Shown: positions 577 to 23,338 of the stretch, piece by piece | Position numbering within the stretch: the first letter of the stretch is position 1 | Layout: every line of letters begins with the position of its first letter | Source of the DNA: Lachnospiraceae bacterium UBA1818 | Lineage (GTDB): Bacteria; Bacillota; Clostridia; Lachnospirales; Lachnospiraceae | Direction: 5' to 3' | DNA length: 64,000 nt | Assembly: GCA_904419285.1 (NCBI GenBank) | Contig: CAJFQZ010000009.1 | Location: 1 to 64,000 of the forward strand | The notes under the pieces: model-generated | Database searches by the model: none | Seen by the model: the letters and a program-made list of their open reading frames with translations, nothing else | Told to the model about the DNA's origin: nothing | Program-made: the position numbers and the translations under genes

Positions 577-661
577 CAGAATGTGGAGTAAATATCATTT
601 TTGTATGCTGAAAACTTAGACAAAAGGCAAAGCAGAAGATGACAATGCTTTATCGACTTAC

Positions 662-712
662 ACCCCTTTCTGTGCTATGATTATGAATGCATAATCATAG
701 ACAGAAAGGGGT
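662..712 (+). promoter_or_regulatory. Long hairpin sequestering the SD of the GTPase-nuclease gene
   Basis: Arms 662-684 and 691-712 pair over 22 bp with a single bulged G at 674; G685-C690 can close an AATG loop. The right arm contains AAAGGGG (705-711), the only SD-like sequence, seven bases before the ATG at 719. The fold would therefore hide the ribosome binding site. There is no U-run directly after the stem, so it is not a typical intrinsic terminator. It could be a translational switch, an RNA processing site or a DNA operator. No clear promoter was found between 577 and 661. Confidence 0.7.
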
Positions 713-718
713 ATTTTC

Positions 719-3445
719 ATGGAAAATACGTCTGAAAATAAGGAAAGATCATCAAAAAAGAATTTATGTATAGGAATTCTCGCCCATGTGGATGCGGGGA
801 AGACGACGCTGTCGGAGAGCATGCTCTATTTAAGCGGAAGTATCCGGAAGCTGGGGCGTGTGGACCACAGGGACGCCTTCCTTGATACATACGGACTGGA
901 GAAAGAGCGGGGAATCACCATCTTCTCCAAGCAGGCGGCCTTCACCTGGAAGGATACGGACGTCACTCTTCTCGACACCCCGGGGCACGTGGATTTCTCG
1001 GCGGAGATGGAGCGTGTCCTGCAGGTGCTTGACTGTGCGGTCCTTGTGGTGAGCGGGGCTGACGGAGTGCAGGGGCACACGGAGACACTGTGGAAGCTGC
1101 TGAAGCGGTATGAGATTCCCGCTTTTCTTTTTGTAAATAAGATGGATCAGGACGGGACGGACAGAGACCGCCTTATGGCAGAGCTGAAAGCCCGGTTCGG
1201 CGAGGGCTGCGTTGATTTTTCGGGAATATCGAAAGGGGATCCGGAAGCGCTGGAAGAGCTTGCCTTCTGCGGCGAGGAAGTCCTTGAGGAGTATCTGGAG
1301 ACGGGAACTGTCAGTTACCGCTCCATCAGGCGATCTGTCGCCCAGAGGAAGCTTTTCCCCTGCTTTTTCGGATCCGCTCTTCATGTTCAGGGTGTGGAGG
1401 AACTGCTGGACGGCCTGGAGCGGTACACACAGACGCCGCAGTATGGAGAGGAGTTCGGGGCAAAGGTTTACAAGATCGCAAGGGACGACCAGGGAAACCG
1501 GCTGACTTATCTGAAGATCACCGGCGGCACGCTGAGTGCGAAGGAAGTCCTTCCTGACGTTGAGGAAAAGGTAAACCAGATAAGGATCTATTCCGGAGCA
1601 AAATATGAGCTTGTCCCCTCTGTCAGAGCGGGGCAGGTCTGCGCAGTGACCGGGCCGGAGGATACATGTCCGGGACAGGGACTGGGCGCGGAGCAGGCGT
1701 CAGACATGCCTGTGCTTGAGCCTGTGCTCACCTACCGGATCGAGCTGCCTGAGGACTGCGATGTCCATGCCATGCTCAGAAATTTAAGACAGCTGGAAGA
1801 AGAAGAACCGGAACTCCACATCGTATGGGATGAGGCGTCCGGCGAGATCCATGCCCAGCTTATGGGAGAGGTGCAGATCGAGATACTCCGAAGCCTGATC
1901 TATCAGAGGTTCAGAGTACGAGTGGAGTTCGGAGAAGGCAGGATCGTGTACAAGGAGACGATAGAGGCACCGGTGGAAGGCGTCGGGCACTTTGAACCGC
2001 TGCGGCATTATGCGGAGGTGCATCTGCTCCTGGAACCGGGAGAACGGGGCTCCGGGCTCCAGGTGGCTTCCTCATGCAGCGAGGATGTGCTGGACAGGAA
2101 CTGGCAGAGACTTGTCCTGACCCATCTGGAGGAAAAGGAGCACGTGGGAGTGCTGACCGGTTCCCCTGTCACGGATCTGAAGATCACGCTGATCGCAGGG
2201 AGAGCCCACCAGAAGCATACCGAGGGCGGAGATTTCCGGCAGGCGACATACCGCGCGGTGCGTCAGGGACTCAAGAAGGCGAAGAGCATCCTTCTGGAGC
2301 CGTACTATGAGTTCCGCCTTGAGATGCCGACAGAGAATATCGGGCGGGCAATGACAGATATTCAGAAAATGTACGGAAAGTTTGAATCACCCCTGACAGA
2401 AGGCGATGTATCGGTGCTCACAGGAAGTGCGCCTGTATCTGCAATGCGCGGCTATCAGACGGAATTCACCGCGTACACCGGCGGCAGGGGAAGGATGTCC
2501 TGTTCGCTGAAAGGATATGACGTCTGCCATGACCAGGAAGAAGTTGTGGCAGCAATCGGCTATGATTCGGAATCGGACCTGGAGAATCCGACAGGATCTG
2601 TCTTCTGCGCCCACGGAGCGGGATTCATCGTGCCCTGGTATCAGGTGGAGGAATACATGCATCTTGAGAGCAGCGAGAAGACTGAGAAAGAGGTGAAGGC
2701 GGCTGAAATGGCAGTGCGCCGGGCAGCCTCGCGGATCGAGCTGACCCAGGAAGAGCTTGACGCGATCTATATCCGCACGCCGGATCCGGTACGCCAGAGC
2801 CGCGGTCCGGTGACAGTGCGTTCCGCGGATGATACAGCGGGAACCCGAACGGATCTGCCTGTGAAGGAAAAAGGAGAAGCCAGGGGCAAATGGGCGGATT
2901 ATAAAAAGGAACGGGAAAAGCAGGAAGAATATCTTCTGGTGGACGGATACAATATCATTTTTGCCTGGGAGGATCTGAACCGGCTTTCCGAGACGAACAT
3001 GGCGGCGGCAAGAGGAAAACTGGCGGATATCCTGTGCAATTATCAGGGCTGGAAGAAGTGTACCCTGATCCTTGTGTTTGACGCATACAAGGTGGAGGGG
3101 AATCCGGGCGAAGTGCTGAAATACCATAATATCTATATCGTCTACACAAAAGAGGCGGAGACGGCGGACCAGTACATCGAGAAGACAGTCAGGCGGATCG
3201 CCCGGTCAGCGGATGTGACCGTGGCGACCTCGGACGGGCTGGAGCAGGTCATCATCCTCGGCCAGGGCGGACGCCGGATGTCAGCGGCAGGCCTGCGGGA
3301 AGAGGTAGAACTTGCCATGAAGGAGATAAGGCAGGAACATCTGGGCAGGACATCGGGAGGAAAGAACTACCTCTTTGATTATCTGGATGAAGAAGACGCC
3401 CAGAAGCTGGAGCAGGTGAGGCTCGGGCAGACACCGGAGCCCTGA
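719..3445 (+). CDS. TetM/EF-G-like GTPase fused to YacP/Rae1-like NYN nuclease
   Basis: 908 residues. The N-terminal ~690 residues are a ribosome-protection/EF-G-type translational GTPase: G1 AHVDAGKTT (22-30), G2 RGITI (64-68), G3 DTPGHVDF (86-93), G4 NKMD (140-143), followed by domain II-V-like sequence. A charged linker (about 690-735) leads to a C-terminal NYN/PIN-like domain (about 736-880) that resembles Bacillus YacP (Rae1): LLVDGYN, VFDA, ETAD, ATSD and FGQG-like ILGQGGRR. The acidic residues expected for metal binding are present (D742, D788, E814/D817, D839). Rae1 is a ribosome-associated nuclease that cuts mRNA in the A site, and TetM-type GTPases also enter the A site. A role in releasing or cleaving mRNA on stalled ribosomes is therefore inferred. 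Tetracycline protection is possible but should not be assumed. SD AAAGGGG lies inside an upstream hairpin. Confidence 0.88.
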   Translation: MENTSENKERSSKKNLCIGILAHVDAGKTTLSESMLYLSGSIRKLGRVDHRDAFLDTYGLEKERGITIFSKQAAFTWKDTDVTLLDTPGHVDFSAEMERVLQVLDCAVLVVSGADGVQGHTETLWKLLKRYEIPAFLFVNKMDQDGTDRDRLMAELKARFGEGCVDFSGISKGDPEALEELAFCGEEVLEEYLETGTVSYRSIRRSVAQRKLFPCFFGSALHVQGVEELLDGLERYTQTPQYGEEFGAKVYKIARDDQGNRLTYLKITGGTLSAKEVLPDVEEKVNQIRIYSGAKYELVPSVRAGQVCAVTGPEDTCPGQGLGAEQASDMPVLEPVLTYRIELPEDCDVHAMLRNLRQLEEEEPELHIVWDEASGEIHAQLMGEVQIEILRSLIYQRFRVRVEFGEGRIVYKETIEAPVEGVGHFEPLRHYAEVHLLLEPGERGSGLQVASSCSEDVLDRNWQRLVLTHLEEKEHVGVLTGSPVTDLKITLIAGRAHQKHTEGGDFRQATYRAVRQGLKKAKSILLEPYYEFRLEMPTENIGRAMTDIQKMYGKFESPLTEGDVSVLTGSAPVSAMRGYQTEFTAYTGGRGRMSCSLKGYDVCHDQEEVVAAIGYDSESDLENPTGSVFCAHGAGFIVPWYQVEEYMHLESSEKTEKEVKAAEMAVRRAASRIELTQEELDAIYIRTPDPVRQSRGPVTVRSADDTAGTRTDLPVKEKGEARGKWADYKKEREKQEEYLLVDGYNIIFAWEDLNRLSETNMAAARGKLADILCNYQGWKKCTLILVFDAYKVEGNPGEVLKYHNIYIVYTKEAETADQYIEKTVRRIARSADVTVATSDGLEQVIILGQGGRRMSAAGLREEVELAMKEIRQEHLGRTSGGKNYLFDYLDEEDAQKLEQVRLGQTPEP

Positions 3446-3505: not shown

Positions 3506-3559
3506 TTTAAAATGACCAGTGTGGTGATAGTATACCAATATCGAACAGAGAGTGTTCGA
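3506..3559 (+). promoter_or_regulatory. Possible promoter with operator-like inverted repeat
   Basis: TTTAAA (3506-3511), 16 bases, then TAGTAT (3528-3533) with an upstream TG (extended -10). A perfect 7-bp inverted repeat TCGAACA-gagag-TGTTCGA (3541-3559) lies at the expected transcription start. It looks like a repressor site for the S component gene that follows. The half-site resembles the Firmicute LexA box, but the spacing (N7 instead of N4) does not fit. Confidence 0.4.
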
Positions 3560-3616
3560 GAAGAATATTCAATCGGAATCAGATTTCGGCAGATTTACAG
3601 GAAAAGAGGGAGTATG

Positions 3617-4222
3617 ATGGAAAGAAGAAATGAAACAGTGATCAAGCTTGCACAGACAGCGCTTATGGCGGCGCTGTGCTATGTGGCATTTACATTTTTA
3701 CAGATCAAGATACCAATGCCGGGAGGCGATGCGACGTCGCTGCATGTGGGAAATGCGTTCTGCGTGCTGGGCGCGCTGATCCTGGGCGGATGGTACGGCG
3801 GCCTTGCGGGAGCGGTAGGGATGACGATCGCGGACCTGATGGATCCGGTCTACATCACCGGCGCGCCGAAGACATTTGTGCTGAAGCTGTGTATCGGCCT
3901 GATCGTAGGACTGGTTGCACACAGGATCGCGAAGATCAATGAGAGCACAGACCGGAAATATGTACTGCGCTGGAGCCTGATCGCTTCTGTGGCGGGGCTG
4001 GGGTTCAATGTGATCGCAGATCCGCTCGTGGGATATTTCTATAAGATGTTTATCCTGGGGCAGCCTCAGCAGATGGCGGAGGTACTGGCAAAATGGAGTA
4101 CAGCGACGACATTTGTCAATGCAGTGGTATCTACAGTGCTGGTGGGAGTCATCTACAATGCGCTCCGCCCGGTGCTTTTAAGATCCGGACTGATCCGGAC
4201 GGTGAAGACGAAGACGGCATGA
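3617..4222 (+). CDS. ECF transporter S component
   Basis: About 201 residues and strongly hydrophobic with five to six membrane segments (TALMAALCYVAFTFL, AFCVLGALILGGWYGG, KLCIGLIVGLVAH, SLIASVAGLGFNVIAD, TFVNAVVSTVLVGVIY). The sequence matches the substrate-binding S subunits of energy-coupling factor transporters (COG4720-like), which import vitamins or their precursors. The substrate cannot be read from the sequence. The ATG at 3617 is chosen over 3614 because AGAGGGA (3605-3611) is then well spaced. The shared ATPase and T subunits are probably those encoded at 49822-52323, typical of group II ECF systems. An intrinsic terminator follows directly. Confidence 0.85.
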   Translation: MERRNETVIKLAQTALMAALCYVAFTFLQIKIPMPGGDATSLHVGNAFCVLGALILGGWYGGLAGAVGMTIADLMDPVYITGAPKTFVLKLCIGLIVGLVAHRIAKINESTDRKYVLRWSLIASVAGLGFNVIADPLVGYFYKMFILGQPQQMAEVLAKWSTATTFVNAVVSTVLVGVIYNALRPVLLRSGLIRTVKTKTA

Positions 4223-4237
4223 TGAAAGCGGCAGGGA

Positions 4238-4277
4238 GAATCCGAAGGAAGAGAAACCTTCGGATTCTTTTTTTCTT
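4238..4277 (+). terminator. Intrinsic terminator after the ECF S gene
   Basis: Perfect 11-bp stem GAATCCGAAGG (4238-4248) / CCTTCGGATTC (4257-4267), 8-nt loop, followed by a T-run of TTTTTTTCTTTT. Confidence 0.93.
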
Positions 4278-4291
4278 TTCTCCCTGTTCGC

Positions 4292-4321
4292 TTGCCAACA
4301 TGGCGCCGGGTATTATATACT
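4292..4321 (+). promoter_or_regulatory. Predicted promoter for pyrF-pyrK-pyrD
   Basis: TTGCCA (4292-4297), 18-base spacer, TATACT (4316-4321), placed between the upstream terminator and pyrF. No PyrR-type attenuator is evident in the short leader. Confidence 0.6.
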
Positions 4322-4376
4322 AGATAAAAGTATCGCCTGGATATTTGTGAAATGGTAAGTAAACGGAGGAAATGAT

Positions 4377-5306
4377 ATGATTAACAAACTGGTTGAAAAG
4401 ATCAAAAAGACAAATGCGCCTATCGTTGTGGGACTTGACCCGATGCTCAGCTATGTTCCCCAGCATGTGCAGGACAAGGCATTCGCAGAGTACGGTGAGA
4501 CACTGGAAGGAGCTGCTGAGGCGATCTGGCAGTTCAACAAGGAGATCGTGGACAAGACCTATGATCTGATCCCGGCAGTGAAGCCGCAGATCGCGATGTA
4601 TGAGCAGTTCGGTGTGCCGGGGCTTATGGCGTTCAAGAAGACGGTGGACTACTGTAAATCAAAGGATCTGGTCGTGATCGGAGACATCAAGAGAGGCGAT
4701 ATCGGTTCCACTTCCGCAGCGTACGCAGTGGGACATCTCGGAAAAGTGAAAGTCGGAAGCAAGGAATATGTTCCGTTCGACGAAGATTTTGCTACAGTGA
4801 ACCCGTATCTCGGCTCAGACGGAGTAAAGCCGTTTATCGAGGTGTGCAGGGAGGAGAAGAAAGGCCTCTTTATCCTGGTGAAGACTTCCAACCCGTCCAG
4901 CGGAGAGTTCCAGGACCGCCTCATCGACGGACGCCCGCTCTACGAACTGGTGGGAGAGAAAGTGGCCGAGTGGGGCGCTGACTGCATGGGCGATGAGTAC
5001 AGCTACATCGGCGCTGTCGTGGGTGCGACTTATCCGGAGATGGGAAAAGTGCTGCGCAGGATCATGCCCAAGTCTTATATCCTTGTGCCCGGATACGGCG
5101 CCCAGGGCGGACAGGGCAAGGATCTGGTGCATTTCTTCAATGAGGACGGACTCGGCGCGATCGTGAACTCTTCCCGTGGAATCATCGCAGCTTATAAACA
5201 GGAGGCGTATGCCAAGTTCGGACCGGAGAATTTCGGAGATGCGTCCAGAGCGGCCGTGGAGGCGATGATCGCTGACATCAGCGGAGCGCTGGAAGCGGCG
5301 AAATAG
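4377..5306 (+). CDS. pyrF: Orotidine 5'-phosphate decarboxylase
   Basis: 309 residues, the long (type 2) form of OMP decarboxylase, which makes UMP in the last step of de novo pyrimidine synthesis. The active-site signature DIKRGDIGS is at 103-111 (catalytic D-x-K-x-x-x-x-D), and VGLDPM (18-23) and VPGYGAQGG near the C-terminus bind the phosphate and base. The ATG follows GGAGG at good spacing. It heads a pyrimidine cluster with pyrK and pyrD. The 127-bp gap to pyrK holds no recognised signal. Confidence 0.96.
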   Translation: MINKLVEKIKKTNAPIVVGLDPMLSYVPQHVQDKAFAEYGETLEGAAEAIWQFNKEIVDKTYDLIPAVKPQIAMYEQFGVPGLMAFKKTVDYCKSKDLVVIGDIKRGDIGSTSAAYAVGHLGKVKVGSKEYVPFDEDFATVNPYLGSDGVKPFIEVCREEKKGLFILVKTSNPSSGEFQDRLIDGRPLYELVGEKVAEWGADCMGDEYSYIGAVVGATYPEMGKVLRRIMPKSYILVPGYGAQGGQGKDLVHFFNEDGLGAIVNSSRGIIAAYKQEAYAKFGPENFGDASRAAVEAMIADISGALEAAK

Positions 5307-5433
5307 AGCGGGACAGCAGGCGGCACGGACACGAACCGCAGAGCGCCGGAGCAGAGTACGGAGTCAGAGTGCGGAAGTGCCGGACGGGCAGCAGGGCACT
5401 GCAGAAAACAGAGCAGGACAGAGGAAAGAAGAT

Positions 5434-6216
5434 ATGACAAAGAAGAAAGAGAATGCAGCGGTCGTCTCCCAGGAGCAGATCGCAGAAAATATTTATAGTA
5501 TGTGGATCAGGACAGAAGCGGCGGCGGAAGCGGCGCCGGGACAGTTTATTTCCATGTATACGAACGACGGGAGCAAGCTGCTCCCGCGCCCGATCAGTAT
5601 CTGTGAGATCGATCGGGAGAAGGGACAGCTCCGTGTTGTATACCGTGTGACAGGACCGGGGACCGGAACGGAAGAATTCTCCCGGATGAAAGCCGGGGAT
5701 ACGATCCCGGTGATCGGACCTCTGGGGAATGGATTTCCGTATGAGAAGGCGGAAGGAAAGAGAGTGTTCCTCATGGGCGGGGGAATTGGAGTTCCCCCTA
5801 TCCTGGAGCTGGCGAAAGAGATGAAGTGTGAGAAGAAGCAGATCGTTGTGGGATACCGGGACGCGGAGACTTTCCTGAGAGAAGAGTTTGAACAGAACGG
5901 AGAAGTCTATATCTCCACAGAAGACGGAAGCGTGGGGACAAAGGGAAATGTCATGGACGCCATCCGGGAAAACGGGCTTGAGGCGGATATCATCTATGCC
6001 TGCGGACCGACCCCGATGCTCCGTGCCATCAAGGCGTATGCCGAGGAAAACGGAATTGTGTGTTATCTCTCCCTGGAAGAGCGCATGGCATGCGGCATCG
6101 GCGCCTGTCTTGCCTGTGTATGTCAGACAAAGGAGAAGGATCATCACAGCAATGTGAACAATAAGCGGATCTGCAAGGACGGTCCGGTATTCCTGTCAAC
6201 GGAGGTGGAGATCTGA
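5434..6216 (+). CDS. pyrK: Dihydroorotate dehydrogenase B, electron transfer subunit
   Basis: 260 residues. PyrK carries FAD and a [2Fe-2S] cluster and passes electrons from dihydroorotate oxidation in PyrD to NAD+. The FAD-binding LLPRPIS is at 49-55, the NAD-binding GGGIGVPP at 115-122, ACGPTPML at 189-196, and cluster cysteines C220, C225, C228 and C247. The start at 5434 is chosen because it follows GAGGAAAG and gives the usual length; earlier in-frame codons lack an SD. It overlaps pyrD by one base (TGATG), so the two subunits are translationally coupled. Confidence 0.95.
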   Translation: MTKKKENAAVVSQEQIAENIYSMWIRTEAAAEAAPGQFISMYTNDGSKLLPRPISICEIDREKGQLRVVYRVTGPGTGTEEFSRMKAGDTIPVIGPLGNGFPYEKAEGKRVFLMGGGIGVPPILELAKEMKCEKKQIVVGYRDAETFLREEFEQNGEVYISTEDGSVGTKGNVMDAIRENGLEADIIYACGPTPMLRAIKAYAEENGIVCYLSLEERMACGIGACLACVCQTKEKDHHSNVNNKRICKDGPVFLSTEVEI

Positions 6217-7115
6217 TGAATATGAAGGTGAATATCGCAGGTGTGGAATGGAAGAATCCGGTGACAGTAGCGTCAGGGACTTTCGGCTCCGGAGCTGAGT
6301 TCGCTGACTATGTGGACCTTAACCGTCTGGGCGCGGTGACGACCAAAGGAGTCGCCAGTGTTCCATGGACGGGAAATCCGACTCCGAGAGTGGCGGAGAC
6401 CTACGGCGGGATGATGAATGCGGTCGGACTGCAGAATCCGGGGATCGACCTGTTCTGCGAGAGGGATATCCCGTTCCTGAGAAAGTATGATACAAAGATC
6501 ATCGTCAATGTCTGCGGACGGTCTGAGGAGGACTACTGCGAAGTGGTCGAGCGGCTGGCAGGCGAGGACGTGGATATGCTGGAGATCAATATCTCCTGTC
6601 CGAATGTAAAGGAGGGCGGGATCGCCTTCGGCCAGGATCCGAAGGCTGCGGAAAAGATCACAAAGGCTGTGAAGAAATATGCGAAGCAGCCGGTGATCAT
6701 GAAGCTGAGCCCCAATGTGACGAGCATCGCCGAGATGGCAAAAGCTGTGGAGGCGGGCGGCGCGGACGCGGTTTCTCTGATCAATACGATCACGGGTATG
6801 AAGATCGATATCAACAGGAAATCGTTTGTCCTGGCGAATAAGACAGGCGGCGTATCCGGACCGGCGATCCATCCGATCGCAGTGCGCATGGTGTATGAGG
6901 CGGCTAATGCTGTGAAAGTTCCGGTCATCGGCATGGGAGGAATTTCTACGGCGGAGGATGCCATCGAGATGATCCTTGCAGGAGCGAGCGCTGTGTCCGT
7001 CGGAACAGCGAATTTTCACAATCCGGGTGTGACGATGGAGATTGTCGACGGGATTGCGGAGTATATGGAGCGGCAGGGCTTCAAGAGTGTCTCTGATATG
7101 GTCGGGATTGTGTAA
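6216..7115 (+). CDS. pyrD: Dihydroorotate dehydrogenase B, catalytic subunit
   Basis: 299 residues. This is the class 1B FMN enzyme that oxidises dihydroorotate to orotate together with PyrK. Visible features are VASGTFG (18-24), TTKGV with the FMN lysine (42-46), NISCPN with the catalytic cysteine C128 typical of class 1 enzymes, and the C-terminal FMN-phosphate motif GMGGIS and SVGTANF. The start overlaps the pyrK stop. Class 1B suits an anaerobe because electrons go to NAD+ instead of quinone. Confidence 0.96.
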   Translation: MNMKVNIAGVEWKNPVTVASGTFGSGAEFADYVDLNRLGAVTTKGVASVPWTGNPTPRVAETYGGMMNAVGLQNPGIDLFCERDIPFLRKYDTKIIVNVCGRSEEDYCEVVERLAGEDVDMLEINISCPNVKEGGIAFGQDPKAAEKITKAVKKYAKQPVIMKLSPNVTSIAEMAKAVEAGGADAVSLINTITGMKIDINRKSFVLANKTGGVSGPAIHPIAVRMVYEAANAVKVPVIGMGGISTAEDAIEMILAGASAVSVGTANFHNPGVTMEIVDGIAEYMERQGFKSVSDMVGIV

Positions 7116-7167
7116 GCGTTCACAGTAATGAAATCGTCAAATAAATAACAGTTCGGCCCTGCCTTAA

Positions 7168-7196
7168 TTGAAAATGGCACCAGTTTATGCTAGAAT
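7168..7196 (+). promoter_or_regulatory. Predicted promoter for pyrE
   Basis: TTGAAA (7168-7173), exactly 17 bases, TAGAAT (7191-7196), with TG one base upstream (extended -10). It gives pyrE its own transcription start even though it follows pyrD. Confidence 0.8.
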
Positions 7197-7281
7197 TTAA
7201 CAGAATGAATCGTTGAGTATCTTCAGTATGAATATAGAAGTAATGGCAGGAAAAGCCATAAATGTGGAGGTTTTAAGAATT

Positions 7282-7962
7282 ATGGAACAGTATAAGCAGG
7301 AATTTATCGAGTTCATGGTTGACAGCGACGTGCTGAAATTCGGAGAGTTTACGCTCAAGAGCGGGAGAAAGTCTCCGTTTTTTATGAATGCGGGCGCTTA
7401 TGTGACAGGTTCTCAGCTGAAGAAGCTGGGAGAGTATTACGCGAAAGCGATCCACGACAAGTACGGGGATGATTTCGACGTGCTGTTCGGACCGGCTTAC
7501 AAGGGAATTCCGCTCAGCGTGGTGACCGCCATCGCATACAGCGAGCTGTACGGAAAGGAAGTGCGCTACTGCTCGGACCGCAAGGAGGAGAAGGATCACG
7601 GCGCAGACAAGGGAAGCTTCCTCGGAAGCAGCCTGAAGGACGGAGACCGTGTGATCATGATCGAGGATGTCACCACATCCGGCAAGTCCATGGAAGAGAC
7701 TGTCCCGAAGGTGAGAGGCGCAGCGGATGTGACGATCGTGGGTCTGATCGTGTCGCTGAACCGCATGGAGGTCGGAAAAGGCGGAGAGAAGTGTGCGCTG
7801 GATGAGATCAGAGATCTCTACGGGTTCGACACCGCGGCGATCGTTTCCATGGACGAAGTGGTCGAGCATCTCTATAATAAACCGTATCACGGGAAAGTTG
7901 TGATCGACGACACATTAAAAGCGGCGATCGATACATACTATGAAACATATGGAGTGAAATAA
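7282..7962 (+). CDS. pyrE: Orotate phosphoribosyltransferase
   Basis: 226 residues. It transfers ribose phosphate from PRPP to orotate to give OMP, the substrate of PyrF. The PRPP loop MIEDVTTSGKS (126-136), the flexible-loop region YCSDRKEEKDHG (97-107) and FGPAYKGIPL (69-78) are all present. The ATG at 7282 is chosen because GTGGAGG precedes it and the length fits; the frame is open further upstream, but that part runs into the leader. It is followed after 13 bases by a small membrane protein gene. Confidence 0.95.
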   Translation: MEQYKQEFIEFMVDSDVLKFGEFTLKSGRKSPFFMNAGAYVTGSQLKKLGEYYAKAIHDKYGDDFDVLFGPAYKGIPLSVVTAIAYSELYGKEVRYCSDRKEEKDHGADKGSFLGSSLKDGDRVIMIEDVTTSGKSMEETVPKVRGAADVTIVGLIVSLNRMEVGKGGEKCALDEIRDLYGFDTAAIVSMDEVVEHLYNKPYHGKVVIDDTLKAAIDTYYETYGVK

Positions 7963-19377: not shown

Positions 19378-19616
19378 AGGGGCTGTTATTACATGCATCT
19401 GCCTGTACTATTGTTACATACGCCAGACCTGTTTTAGAATCACAGAATTTTTTCGAAGGTCCCGCAGTCACTCAGAAAAAATGAATTATAGGAATTTGCT
19501 ATTTGTTTTATCATAAAAATCAATACCTCATCCGGTGTTTTTTGATTGTGCGGGAAATGGAAAAATGATACGGTTATATCAGTGTTGACAGTCTGAAGAT
19601 ACAGGAGATGAAGACA

Positions 19617-20393
19617 ATGAATTATGTAGGGATCGACATCGGTTCAACAGCTGCCAAGGTGGTGACCCGGGGGGACGTGAATCTGGAGTTTGTCCTTCCC
19701 ACGGGATGGAGCAGCAAAGAGACGGCAGGCATTATCCGGGAGAGACTGCTCCTGGAGGGGATCGACGTTCTTGACGACGGAACGCAGACCGTGGCAACCG
19801 GATATGGAAGAGTAGCTGTGGATTATGCGGATCATGTGATCACGGAGATCACCTGCCATGCCAGAGGCGGCAGGGAGATCGGAAGCGGGGACTGCGCCGT
19901 GATCGATGTGGGCGGACAGGATACAAAGGTAATCCTGATCAGTCAGGGCATGGTGCAGGATTTTCTTATGAATGACAAGTGTTCCGCAGGGACGGGAAAG
20001 TTCCTTGAGATCATGGCAAACCGGCTCGGCGTAAGTCTGTCCGAGCTGTTCGATCTGGCGGATACGGGAGAGGCGCTCCCAATCAGCTCGCTGTGCACAG
20101 TGTTTGCCGAGTCAGAGGTGATCAACTATATCGGAGAAGGAAGGAGACGGGAAGACATCGCGGCAGGCGTGGTGGATTCTGTCGCGGCGAAGGTGGCGCA
20201 GCTAGCACTTCGAAAGGAACTTCCGGAACAGGTCATACTGACCGGAGGGCTCAGCGGCAGCGGATACTTTGCCCGCATCCTTTCAGAGAAGATCGAAAGG
20301 AAGGTAGAATCGGAGGACTGCGGCAGATATGCAGGGGCGCTGGGCGCGGCACTGCTGGCAGAAGAGAAGTTTAAACGCAGAGGAGGAAAATGA
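19617..20393 (+). CDS. 2-hydroxyacyl-CoA dehydratase-type activase (HgdC/YjiL-like)
   Basis: 258 residues, ASKHA-fold ATPase of the BcrA/BadF/HgdC family. GIDIGSTAAK (5-14) and VIDVGGQDTK (95-104) bind ATP. C122 (DKCSAGTGKF) and C160 (SLCTVFAESE) are the two cysteines that ligate the [4Fe-4S] cluster shared by the dimer. Such proteins push single electrons at low potential into a partner enzyme. The ATG at 19617 is preferred because AGGAG abuts the ATG at 19608. The partner gene begins one base after its stop. Confidence 0.92.
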   Translation: MNYVGIDIGSTAAKVVTRGDVNLEFVLPTGWSSKETAGIIRERLLLEGIDVLDDGTQTVATGYGRVAVDYADHVITEITCHARGGREIGSGDCAVIDVGGQDTKVILISQGMVQDFLMNDKCSAGTGKFLEIMANRLGVSLSELFDLADTGEALPISSLCTVFAESEVINYIGEGRRREDIAAGVVDSVAAKVAQLALRKELPEQVILTGGLSGSGYFARILSEKIERKVESEDCGRYAGALGAALLAEEKFKRRGGK

Positions 20394-20394
20394 A

Positions 20395-21546
20395 GTGGAG
20401 CTGATCAAAGATTTACCGGAGGTATTTGAAGAATTTGCAGAGCAGAGGAAGAATTCATTCCTCGGAGTAAAGAAGCTGAAGGAGCAGGGCGTGCCGGTCG
20501 TGGGCGCCTACTGTACATATTTCCCGCAGGAAATTGCGATGGCGATGGGCGCGGCGACGGTCGGGCTGTGCTCTACGTCGGATGAGACCATCCCGGACGC
20601 GGAGAGGGATCTGCCGAAAAACTTATGTCCGCTGATCAAGTCCAGCTACGGATTTGCCAAGACGGATAAATGTCCGTTTTTCTATTTCTCGGACGTAGTT
20701 GTCGGTGAGACGACCTGCGACGGAAAGAAAAAGATGTATGAGTATATGTCAGAGTTCAAGGATGTATTTCTTATGGAACTGCCCAACACCCAGGGGGAAG
20801 AGGCGCTGAAGCTCTGGAAGAGCGAGATCATCCGCTTTAAGGAATACCTGGAGAAGAAGTTCGACGTGACGATCACAGAGGATGACATCCGGGAAGCGAT
20901 CAAGGTAAACAACGCGGGCAGGAGATCCCTGAAGAAGCTCTATGAAGTGATGCAGAATGATCCGGTGCCGATCAGCGGCCATGATCTGTTCAAGGTACTG
21001 TACGGAAGCACATTCAAGTTCGATCGGAAAGCGATACCGGCGGAAGTGGACGCCCTGGTCGAGAAGATCAACCAGGAATATGCGGAAGGAAAGATGCTGG
21101 AGAAGATGCCCCGTATCCTGCTGACAGGATGTCCCGTGGGCGGCGCCACGGAAAAGATCATCCAGGCTATTGAGAGCAACGGCGCGGTGGTCGTGACCTA
21201 TGAGAACTGCACGGGCGCAAAGTCTATCGACAAGCTGGTGGATGAGGACGCGGAGGACGTATATGATGCGCTTGCAAGGCGCTATCTGAACATCGGATGT
21301 TCCGTCATGACGCCGAATCCGAACCGTCTTGAACTTCTGGGTCGCCTGATCGATGAGTATCAGGTGGACGGTGTGGTGGAGATGACGCTGCAGGCCTGTC
21401 ATACATATAATATTGAGTCTTACGGCATCCGCAGATTTGTGAATCAGGAGAAGGGGATTCCGTATATCAGCATAGAGACTGATTATTCACAGGCGGATAT
21501 CGGACAGCTGAATACAAGGATCGCGGCATTTATCGAGATGCTGTGA
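20395..21546 (+). CDS. 2-hydroxyacyl-CoA dehydratase D-like / double-cubane cluster protein (YjiM-like)
   Basis: 383 residues, GTG start eight bases after AGGAGG. It matches the HgdB/FldC-like family. Cysteines in VGAYCTYFP, GLCSTSDE, NLCPLIKSSYG, DKCPFF, TTCDGKKK, LTGCPVGG, ENCTG and LQACHTY are in the positions expected for an Fe-S enzyme. The single-subunit form paired with one activase resembles the YjiM/YjiL double-cubane [8Fe-9S-type] systems, whose physiological substrate is unknown, more than the two-subunit acyl-CoA dehydratases. No CoA-transferase or acyl-CoA dehydrogenase gene lies nearby. Confidence 0.88.
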   Translation: MELIKDLPEVFEEFAEQRKNSFLGVKKLKEQGVPVVGAYCTYFPQEIAMAMGAATVGLCSTSDETIPDAERDLPKNLCPLIKSSYGFAKTDKCPFFYFSDVVVGETTCDGKKKMYEYMSEFKDVFLMELPNTQGEEALKLWKSEIIRFKEYLEKKFDVTITEDDIREAIKVNNAGRRSLKKLYEVMQNDPVPISGHDLFKVLYGSTFKFDRKAIPAEVDALVEKINQEYAEGKMLEKMPRILLTGCPVGGATEKIIQAIESNGAVVVTYENCTGAKSIDKLVDEDAEDVYDALARRYLNIGCSVMTPNPNRLELLGRLIDEYQVDGVVEMTLQACHTYNIESYGIRRFVNQEKGIPYISIETDYSQADIGQLNTRIAAFIEML

Positions 21547-21680
21547 TGCTGTGGAAGACAATCCTCAGAAGCAGTAGTTTGCGAGAAAGATATTCGTTTA
21601 CAAGAAAAGAAATTTGTGAGAAAAGTAGTCCGCAGAGGAAGCGGTCTGCAGGGAAAATGATTCTCATGAGGAAAAGGAAA

Positions 21681-21714
21681 GGGCAGGCAGCCGAAGAAGA
21701 CCGGCTGCCTGCCC
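21681..21714 (-). terminator. Intrinsic terminator, probably for the ABC-F transcript
   Basis: Perfect 13-bp stem GGGCAGGCAGCCG (21681-21693) / CGGCTGCCTGCCC (21702-21714). On the - strand it is followed by TTTCCTTTTCC, while the + side has no T-run. It may also stop the + transcript of the dehydratase pair weakly. Confidence 0.75.
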
Positions 21715-21736
21715 TGCTGTCTGTCCGTCAGACGTG

Positions 21737-21832
21737 CTATTTTTCCCTCGGATACTTGATACATGCCGGAATGACAAGAAACGTCATTACCACATTCAGC
21801 AGTCCGCCAAGATACCCCAGGATCAGCATCAT
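21737..21832 (-). CDS. Possible 31-residue membrane peptide after the ABC-F gene
   Basis: Starts MMLILGYLGGLLNVV and ends CIKYPREK, with one hydrophobic helix and a basic tail. It begins about 24 bases after the ABC-F stop with GCAGGAAG just upstream and ends before the terminator. It could be a small membrane protein or the remnant of a transporter C-terminus. No family is recognised. Confidence 0.4.
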   Translation of the reverse strand: MMLILGYLGGLLNVVMTFLVIPACIKYPREK

Positions 21833-21856
21833 ACTTCCTGCAGCTCTTTTGCAGGA

Positions 21857-23338
21857 TCAAAGTTCAACGATCCTTGTCGCGATCTTCTCGCGGAACGCCC
21901 GGTCGTGCTCGATAAAGAGCATTGCGGGCTGAAAGGTGAGCAGCAGATCCTCGAGCTGCATCCGGGAGAAGATATCGATAAAGTTCAGCGGCTCATCCCA
22001 GAGAAAGAGGTGAGCAGGCTCGCACAAAGATTTTGCCAGGAGTACTTTTTTCTTCTGCCCTTCGCTGTAGTCCTCGATCCGCTTTTCAAACTGCGCACGC
22101 TCCAGTCCGAGTTTCCGCAGGACAGTGAAGAGCAGCGGCTCGCTGATGCCGTATTTGACAGCAAGTTCTGAGAGGGTGCCGCTCAGATAAGAGGTGTCCT
22201 GGGAGATGTAGGAGATGACAAGACCGCCTGCGGTCCAGACCTGCCCGGTGTGCGGGATATCTTCTCCAAGGATCAGCTTCATCAGGCTCGTCTTGCCGCA
22301 GCCGTTCTTTCCGGACAGGGCGATGCGGTCGCCCTGGCAGATCTCCAGACTGAAGTGTTCCATCAGGGGCGAAGAATCTCCGTATCTGATCGCGATATCA
22401 TCCAGCGAGATCAGACGCCGGCTGTGATGCTCCAGCACGTTGAGCTTTAAGCTGTCCAGCGTCTCTATGTCTTTGAGCAGCCCTTCCTTTTCACGGACGG
22501 CGGCTTCTTTCCTGTTTTCAAGAGATTTTGCGCGTTTCATCATCTTTGCGGCCTGGTGTCCGATATGGCCACGGTCCGGTCTGAGCCCAGCGATGCGTGA
22601 ACCGGTCTTTGTCGCTTCAACTTTATCTGACCAGCGCGCCGCCTGCCGGGCGGCCTCTTTTAACTTGCGGATATCTTTTTTCAGGTGTTCGTTCTGCCGT
22701 ATTTCCATGCTGTCCCGGGCAGTTTTGTCTGCATACCAGGAAGAGAAATTTCCTTTCCGCACTTCGATGGTCTGCCTGTTCAGCACAAGCACGTGGTCCA
22801 CGCAGCGGTCGAGAAAGTCTCTGTCGTGGGATACAAGGATGAAGCCTTTTTTACAGGAAAGGTAATCCGCGACTTTGTCTCTTGCAGGACCGTCCAGATG
22901 GTTCGTCGGCTCGTCGATCAGGAGAAAAGCATGTTCCTTAAGAAACAGAGCGGCGAGAAGTGATTTCGTCTGTTCGCCGAAGCTTAAGGTGGAGAAGGGG
23001 CGGTACAGGATCTCTGCATCTGTATCCAGCAGACTCAGTTCCCGGATCAGTTCCCACTGTTCCATGACAGGATTGATCTCTTCCAGGATCTCCAGCGTCA
23101 TCCGCGAGCGGTCCTTTACCGGAAACGGAAAATACTCGAACTCTGCAGACGATGTGATGGAACCGCTGTATCCATAAGCGCCAGTGAGCAGCTTCAGAAA
23201 GGTCGTTTTTCCTTTGCCGTTCCTTCCGATGAATCCAAGTTTCCAGTCAGTATCGATCTGGAAAGAGACATTTTCAAAGACAGGATCAAAGCTCCCGTCG
23301 TAAGTAAAGCTCAGATTGTTTATCTGTATGATTGACAT
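21857..23338 (-). CDS. ABC-F ribosomal protection protein, Lsa/CplR-like
   Basis: 493 residues with two ABC ATPase domains and no membrane part. Walker A motifs are GRNGKGKTT (first) and GKNGCGKTS (second), with signature-like TLSFGEQTK and EGQKKK, and Walker B LIDEPTNHLD and LWDEPLN. The spacing and sequence are closest to the Lsa/CplR group, which displaces lincosamides, pleuromutilins and streptogramin A from the ribosome. The start at 23338 is chosen because GGAGGG lies seven bases before it. A long leader with a short ORF and a terminator precedes it, as is common for drug-induced ABC-F genes. The drug spectrum is not known. Confidence 0.88.
   Translation of the reverse strand: MSIIQINNLSFTYDGSFDPVFENVSFQIDTDWKLGFIGRNGKGKTTFLKLLTGAYGYSGSITSSAEFEYFPFPVKDRSRMTLEILEEINPVMEQWELIRELSLLDTDAEILYRPFSTLSFGEQTKSLLAALFLKEHAFLLIDEPTNHLDGPARDKVADYLSCKKGFILVSHDRDFLDRCVDHVLVLNRQTIEVRKGNFSSWYADKTARDSMEIRQNEHLKKDIRKLKEAARQAARWSDKVEATKTGSRIAGLRPDRGHIGHQAAKMMKRAKSLENRKEAAVREKEGLLKDIETLDSLKLNVLEHHSRRLISLDDIAIRYGDSSPLMEHFSLEICQGDRIALSGKNGCGKTSLMKLILGEDIPHTGQVWTAGGLVISYISQDTSYLSGTLSELAVKYGISEPLLFTVLRKLGLERAQFEKRIEDYSEGQKKKVLLAKSLCEPAHLFLWDEPLNFIDIFSRMQLEDLLLTFQPAMLFIEHDRAFREKIATRIVEL

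Follow-up and report, generated by a model that had tools for sequence, protein, structure and literature searches.

The stretch analysed here (the window) comprises 64,000 nucleotides of Lachnospiraceae bacterium UBA1818, contig CAJFQZ010000009.1, and carries near its start a gene for a 908-residue protein in which a translational GTPase is followed by a linker and a nuclease domain of the Rae1/YacP type. The initial annotation, made from the letters alone, had described a TetM-type GTPase joined to an NYN nuclease and had suggested a one-protein system for ribosome rescue and messenger RNA (mRNA) cleavage. The gene and the parts of its product, including the domains typical of elongation factor G (EF-G), are as follows.

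719..3445, forward strand: fusion gene, 908 residues, translational GTPase, linker and Rae1/YacP-type NYN nuclease (open reading frame, Pfam, PDB sequence matches, AlphaFold2)
761..1432, forward strand: G domain, residues 15-238, with motifs G1-G4 intact (Pfam GTP_EFTU, motif alignment)
1718..1933, forward strand: EF-G domain III, residues 334-405 (Pfam EFG_III)
1937..2284, forward strand: EF-G domain IV, residues 407-522 (Pfam EFG_IV)
2198..2239, forward strand: tip loop of domain IV, GRAHQKHTEGGDFR, residues 494-507, which differs from the TetM/TetO-type SPVSTPADFR (alignment including TetO)
2291..2536, forward strand: EF-G C-terminal domain V, residues 525-606 (Pfam EFG_C)
2537..2674, forward strand: conserved extension, residues 607-652, with SVFCAHGAGF; an unfused sister family is also similar up to this point (alignments)
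2675..2923, forward strand: variable linker, residues 653-735, of which 662-731 are predicted to be disordered (alignment, AlphaFold2)
2933..3421, forward strand: NYN_YacP/Rae1 nuclease domain, residues 739-901, with catalytic residues D742, N745, D788, D817, E821 and D839 (Pfam, PDB match, alignments)

Pfam, PDB matches and alignment agree on an EF-G/Tet-like protein with intact G1-G4 and a C-terminal YacP/Rae1-like NYN domain, as had been read from the sequence at the outset. The Pfam scores are 176.3 bits for GTP_EFTU (residues 15-238) and 172.8 bits for NYN_YacP (residues 739-901, cut-off 24.6). In a sequence search against the PDB, TetO, EF-G and TetM were the nearest solved structures over residues 16-603, and the C-terminal domain matched YacP/Rae1 of Bacillus subtilis (5mq9, E 2.9e-22; 5mq8, E 4.9e-22). 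An AlphaFold2 model built with 90 aligned relatives has a mean predicted local distance difference test score (pLDDT) of 82 and a predicted template modelling score of 0.58; the GTPase module is confident, the linker (662-731) has a pLDDT below 50, and a confident NYN fold resumes from about residue 733, so that the nuclease is best seen as a tethered, independently folded unit. The model thus supports the two modules and leaves their relative placement unpredicted. A Foldseek search with the full chain placed EF-G-type chains on top among the 50 matches listed of 1952. The linker, counted in the alignment from W640 to D742, measures 78-154 residues (median 97, countable in 90/90); a count by regular expression was discarded because it yielded spurious lengths of up to 460 and left out 29 sequences. 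Nonsynonymous divergence is low in the GTPase and NYN domains compared with the fast-changing linker (synonymous divergence being mostly saturated).

The active sites of both modules are conserved. Motifs G1-G4 are intact in the window protein and nearly all aligned relatives, the exceptions being one row with an altered start of the P-loop (L071) and one without letters at switch I (L095). D742, N745, D788, D817, E821 and D839 are identical in 90/90 fusion proteins of alignment A2, which contains the window protein, 79 of 80 fusion loci (L214 was excluded) and 10 database proteins; the 80 loci are the best 80 of 593 confirmed candidates and are biased towards the window protein. Four of the acidic residues initially proposed as catalytic are therefore invariant, N745 and E821 have to be added to them, and E814, named as an alternative, is the weakest (Glu in 82 and Gln in 8 of the 90). 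The same six residues were found in 35/35 fused and 33/33 rows labelled separate of a wider, class-level set, whose "separate" rows include one contig-cut fusion (L050). D7 of Rae1 aligns with D742, and the fusion thus shares with B. subtilis Rae1 (5MQ8, 5MQ9) the NYN_YacP domain and its catalytic residues, together with, in the window protein, the long C-terminal tail; it differs in being part of a 908-residue GTPase and in lying outside the gap between rlmB and sigH. Residue 790 (window 3086-3088), close after D788, is Tyr in 35/35 fused NYN domains and His in 23/33 labelled separate, a difference which may bear on substrate choice.

The architecture itself has been known since 2015, when Atkinson reported a YacP-like NYN domain attached to Tet proteins in ten clostridial species and suggested a role of the RNase in antibiotic resistance (PMC4342817, in the excerpts used here). 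With a Tet-like translational GTPase, a C-terminal YacP-like NYN domain and a clostridial host, the window protein belongs to that Tet-NYN family. The same excerpts propose a ribosomal RNA (rRNA) RNase and resistance role, whereas our analysis sets the domain-IV tip and the curated cut-off against a Tet assignment and adds the replacement of rae1 and the leader described below. In line with the initial remark that no experimental description was known, we found no experiment on the fusion in the open literature searched, where nothing on the rae1 replacement or the leader came up either; the architecture is in print in the one paper found there to name it. New here are the fusion as the usual form in its family, the apparent replacement of rae1, a non-Tet GTPase with an unfused sister, and a leader hairpin in a subset of genes.

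The GTPase belongs to the EF-2-type translational GTPases, having G1-G4 and domains III, IV and V in EF-G order, but it falls short of the curated models for the two best-known groups: it scores 432.3 bits with tet_protect (NF012153), against a cut-off of 775, and 330.7 bits with the EF-G model (TIGR00484), against 659.4. The fold (by its top Foldseek matches) and the domain set are those of EF-G, while the genome of the window holds a second EF-G-like gene of 716 residues. TetM and TetO share with the fusion the EF-G-type domain order and the G1-G4 motifs, and differ from it in clade and in the tip of domain IV, a loop with a role in tetracycline release (PMC4342817, in part). This tip is YYSPVSTPADFR in TetO and in four TetM/TetO-like rows (L103-L106), but GRAHxKHTEGGDFR or close to it in the window protein and its relatives, both fused and unfused (L070 and L071 being the most diverged), with KHTEGGDFR or a near variant in 27/29 fused rows. 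The description of the GTPase as TetM-type consequently finds no support. Other Tet-like rows (L096-L098, L100, L101) carry yet another tip, so that the Tet-like group is not uniform. Three of the database names listed call the fusion a Tet protein, which bears out the early suspicion that automatic naming hides it, and the label "tetracycline resistance" is, judging from the tip and the scores, probably a misnomer.

Rows L080-L095 form an unfused Tet-like GTPase family of about 650 residues with the tip KHTxGGDFR. These clostridial sisters share with the fusion the tip motif and the C-terminal extension, and differ in having neither linker nor NYN domain and in forming their own clade (87/74). 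In a GTPase tree of 57 rows, the 29 fused rows fall in one clade (99/99), the 16 unfused relatives are its sister group, and 11 Tet-like rows stand apart.

In the window's family, Lachnospiraceae, the fusion is the usual form of the Rae1 domain. Of 7966 database relatives, the top 120 contain PF05991 without exception, and NYN_YacP was found in 37/41 genomes of relatives. A family sample of 140 genomes, one per genus, contains NYN_YacP in 130, of which 121 have it in frames of at least 600 residues. The remaining 9 comprise 3 broken or contig-split fusions and 6 separate Rae1 genes. Among the former, the GTPase frame overlaps the NYN frame in G354, the fusion is cut by a contig start in G396, and in G394 the NYN domain lies at a contig start with the leader and N-terminus on another contig; among the latter, five stand directly after rlmB (G341, G397, G333, G360, G371) and one elsewhere (G365). 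A profile search of the window's own genome found a single NYN_YacP, the fusion, and no genome of the family sample combines the fusion with a separate full-length copy (G351 has only an extra contig-edge fragment), so that the check on separate yacP homologues proposed at the outset came out in favour of the initial reading. At the level of the class, NYN_YacP matches occur in 192/293 genomes; 149 genomes were listed, 86 with frames of at least 600 residues, 59 with frames of at most 220 and 5 in between. G321 is the only one of the 149 to hold both forms. In the five in-between genomes the GTPase and NYN parts lie in neighbouring frames or at the ends of contigs, except in G223, where a single piece sits at the start of a contig; all five are interpreted as fusions that are broken or split. 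Among 299 genomes sampled across the phylum, 21 had a match at E <= 1e-120, of which 18 reach residue 865 or beyond and 3 end near 650, that is, unfused. Named carriers among the 80 loci include Clostridium polysaccharolyticum, Desulfosporosinus acididurans, Anaerovorax odorimutans and Candidatus Mediterraneibacter. Possible second NYN_YacP copies in three genomes of one genus (L319, L320, L321; G159, G212, G246) were dismissed as partial matches of 21.3-21.5 bits, below the cut-off, in frames of 163-165 residues.

In order to locate the place of a separate rae1, we used as probes the proteins of a cluster in the window's own genome which we take, from the B. subtilis operon, to be cysE, cysS, mrnC, rlmB and sigH; rlmB was identified by TIGR00186. 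The order rlmB-rae1-sigH was found in 21 genomes with a separate Rae1, including G321, G397 and G360. In the window's genome the order is cysE-cysS-mrnC-rlmB-sigH, the end of rlmB overlaps the start of sigH, and there is no room for rae1; the NYN domain thus lacks the position between rlmB and sigH, which is a matter of context rather than a defining property of the protein. No NYN match stands beside rlmB in any of the 26 fusion genomes inspected (the window's own and 25 others), 14 of which have sigH in the inspected stretch and 12 do not. Since the rlmB-sigH locus of fusion genomes is without rae1, the separate gene would have been lost where the fusion is present, and G321, with both the fusion and rlmB-rae1-sigH, looks like an intermediate. 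The ancestral order is not universal, because in four genomes with a separate Rae1 (G111, G134, G088, G156) rae1 is not directly next to rlmB. By gene order and distribution, the fusion seems to have taken over the place of separate rae1 in gut Clostridia.

The nuclease tails also differ between the two forms. At least 60 residues follow Q843 in 36/36 separate Rae1 proteins and fewer than 45 in 35/118 fused ones (the two sets may share genomes). In B. subtilis Rae1 a change of R166, in this tail, acts as a loss of function (PMC6613710, in excerpt), and the shortening would make sense if the GTPase had taken over docking on the ribosome.

The single fused clade in the GTPase tree is consistent with one fusion, after which the gene spread and separate rae1 was lost, and horizontal transfer of the fusion is likely, because members of the family are scattered in that tree. 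Two separate NYN genes of the window's family lie outside the rlmB locus (L107 in G247 and L273 in G365); in G247 the NYN domain resembles the fused type and an unfused GTPase lies elsewhere in the same genome. Both genes may be fissions.

Taken together, we lean towards the reading that Rae1, a ribosome-associated mRNA endonuclease, has been joined to the C-terminus of a Tet-like GTPase that does not release tetracycline, has replaced rae1 and acts on paused ribosomes. This suggests a built-in device for stuck ribosomes rather than for drug resistance. B. subtilis Rae1 is an A-site nuclease whose mRNA cleavage depends on translation (PMC6613710, PMC12320835 and PMC10100781, each in part). The two modules, whose active sites are conserved, the predicted disordered linker between them, the loss of rae1, the absence of the Tet tip and a transfer-messenger RNA (tmRNA) recognised by sequence are features of the genome itself; from these we infer ribosome binding, GTP dependence, A-site cleavage and their order. 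The GTPase would bind at the factor site when a ribosome has paused and its A site is accessible, and the altered tip of domain IV would probe the latter; after GTP hydrolysis domain IV would withdraw, and the nuclease, kept near by the flexible linker of some 80-150 residues, could enter the vacated A site, either on that ribosome or on a stacked neighbour. There it would cut the mRNA, and the resulting non-stop ribosome would pass to tmRNA.

Several observations weigh against this proposal. In factors of the EF-G type, domain IV occupies the A site, as Rae1 does, and the two cannot act there simultaneously; as they should compete, action would therefore have to be sequential on one ribosome or be directed at a stacked neighbour. 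The window protein itself retains the long C-terminal tail, so the argument from shortened tails concerns other members. A tree of 68 NYN domains shows no single clean fused clade and requires two changes instead of one, due to L050 (the contig-cut fusion mislabelled as separate) and G247 (a separate NYN near the window's fused group). Finally, at least 7 genomes (G065, G068, G093, G107, G216, G241, G325) hold the unfused sister GTPase without any NYN_YacP, which rules out a strict co-occurrence of the unfused GTPase with separate Rae1 and shows that the sister has a role apart from it.

The last point also speaks for an arrangement in which the GTPase works in its own right in rescue or in a back-translocation-type role, and the NYN domain was attached only for convenience, by way of ribosome targeting or equal dosage, and acts independently. 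The sister family has the same tip, separate Rae1 without such a GTPase is common, and the linker is long and unstructured. Yet a single fusion clade kept across many families and the loss of separate rae1 both point to a benefit of the link, and the shortened tails in some fused proteins hint at dependence; we regard independent action as rather unlikely. That the nuclease, brought by the GTPase, trims rRNA or transfer RNA on or near ribosomes agrees with a 2006 proposal for YacP-like NYN domains, as quoted in the excerpts of PMC4342817, and with the proximity of rae1 to rlmB and mrnC where Rae1 is encoded separately; the later B. subtilis work, which supports translation-dependent mRNA cleavage (PMC6613710, PMC12320835 and PMC10100781, in part), makes this improbable. 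Less probable still is the 2015 suggestion of a tetracycline ribosomal protection protein to which the RNase domain adds a resistance mechanism. It is true that tet_protect is the best family by score (432 bits), that some database entries bear Tet names and that TetO and TetM figure among the closest PDB sequence matches. However, the score lies below the 775-bit cut-off, the fused tip is of the KHTEGGDFR type and not that of the Tet rows, and two genomes (G174, G081) hold both the fusion and a Tet-type gene with a SPVSTPADF tip. Unlike an acquired resistance gene, moreover, the fusion is chromosomal, occurs in about 95% of family genera with a Rae1 domain and has no common neighbours in 31 fused loci. 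When the open reading frames of these 31 and of 15 unfused loci were clustered, no real neighbour was widely common, and the large shared clusters consisted of frames antisense to the gene or shadowing it; gene context therefore gives no function.

If fused Rae1 does act on paused ribosomes, a very common gut-bacterial gene often listed as tetracycline resistance would be an mRNA-surveillance factor, and resistome counts would be inflated. The fusion would also be a natural experiment on the access of Rae1 to ribosomes, a free nuclease having given way to one that is linked to a translational GTPase, and the link makes GTP-dependent entry into the A site directly testable.

Directly before the start codon lies a leader with two overlapping features.

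653..681, forward strand: promoter-like site, TCGACT, 17 nucleotides, TATGAT, with an extended -10 (TG), within the 5' arm of the hairpin (consensus match, 9/12)
662..712, forward strand: leader hairpin whose 3' arm contains the Shine-Dalgarno sequence AAAGGGG (705-711) (folding z, covariation, covariance model)

The minimum free energy of the region 600-740 has a z of -7.6. In an alignment of 16 leaders (A3), pairing holds in 85.8% of the cells; two-sided changes affect 9 pairs and 35 cells, the latter compared with 13.4 +/- 3.8 in shuffles. As 30 cells are G-U, an RNA structure explains the hairpin more easily than a DNA palindrome. A3 is a selected set, in that four leaders with the TCGAC pattern and no such hairpin were omitted (L198, L206, L209, L256) and three were added by eye (L203, L217, L052). 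TCGAC opens 15/16 rows of A3 and 15/15 rows of alignment A4. A covariance model (R1) run over the 140 family genomes gave 17 matches with E < 1e-6, every one of which falls where the fusion gene begins: for 16 of them the NYN match follows on the same contig at a distance of 2.1-2.3 kb, and the one in G394 was placed by its N-terminal translation. A core-identity check showed 15 of the 17 not to be training sequences; each of these 15 leads straight into the GTPase frame. A further eight matches, of lower significance (E 1.4e-4 to 0.01), fall elsewhere. In the 15 new leaders, aligned by fitting to the model, two-sided changes are seen in 12 cells (5.1 +/- 1.7 in shuffles, 0/500 as high), while neither the number of pairs with such changes (5, reached by 28/500 shuffles) nor that of further pair types (157/500) goes beyond shuffles.

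The leader is not a general feature of fused genes, of which 19/110 have z < -3 and 30/110 z < -2 (median -0.7), and some of these low values belong to other hairpins. The TCGAC promoter-like pattern occurs in 17 of 115 fused and unfused genes, all 17 fused. A first gap-free scan found hairpins in 13/111 and missed the window's own because of its bulge; no known RNA family reached its gathering threshold in the window. By folding and covariation, then, the leader is predicted to form, in a minority of fused genes, a covarying hairpin that is specific to this gene and sequesters the Shine-Dalgarno sequence. If the promoter-like site is real, the gene's own transcripts would start in the loop with the Shine-Dalgarno sequence free, and transcripts from upstream would bury it. 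The orientation of upstream genes speaks against the idea that the leader guards against read-through: in that case co-directional upstream genes should be more frequent at hairpin loci, yet they stand at 21/28 of these and at 66/87 others (10 further loci were too short and 1 had no upstream open reading frame). A more far-reaching version of our proposal, which we hold as tentative and rather doubtful, is that Lachnospiraceae and many other Clostridia routinely respond to paused ribosomes with a single-chain factor whose mRNA cleavage is gated by GTP; the GTPase would select the ribosome and clear the A site, Rae1 would cut, and synthesis would be guarded by the promoter-embedded Shine-Dalgarno hairpin, possibly a control point for Rae1 or stalling.

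Downstream of the fusion (window 3512-7962), the genes resemble, by eye, a transporter subunit and a pyrimidine synthesis cluster, with no link to the fusion found in other genomes. Further along, at window 19608-21932, adjoining frames of 261, 405 and 129 residues resemble, also by eye, pieces of one dehydratase-activator-type gene, and perhaps reflect a frameshift.

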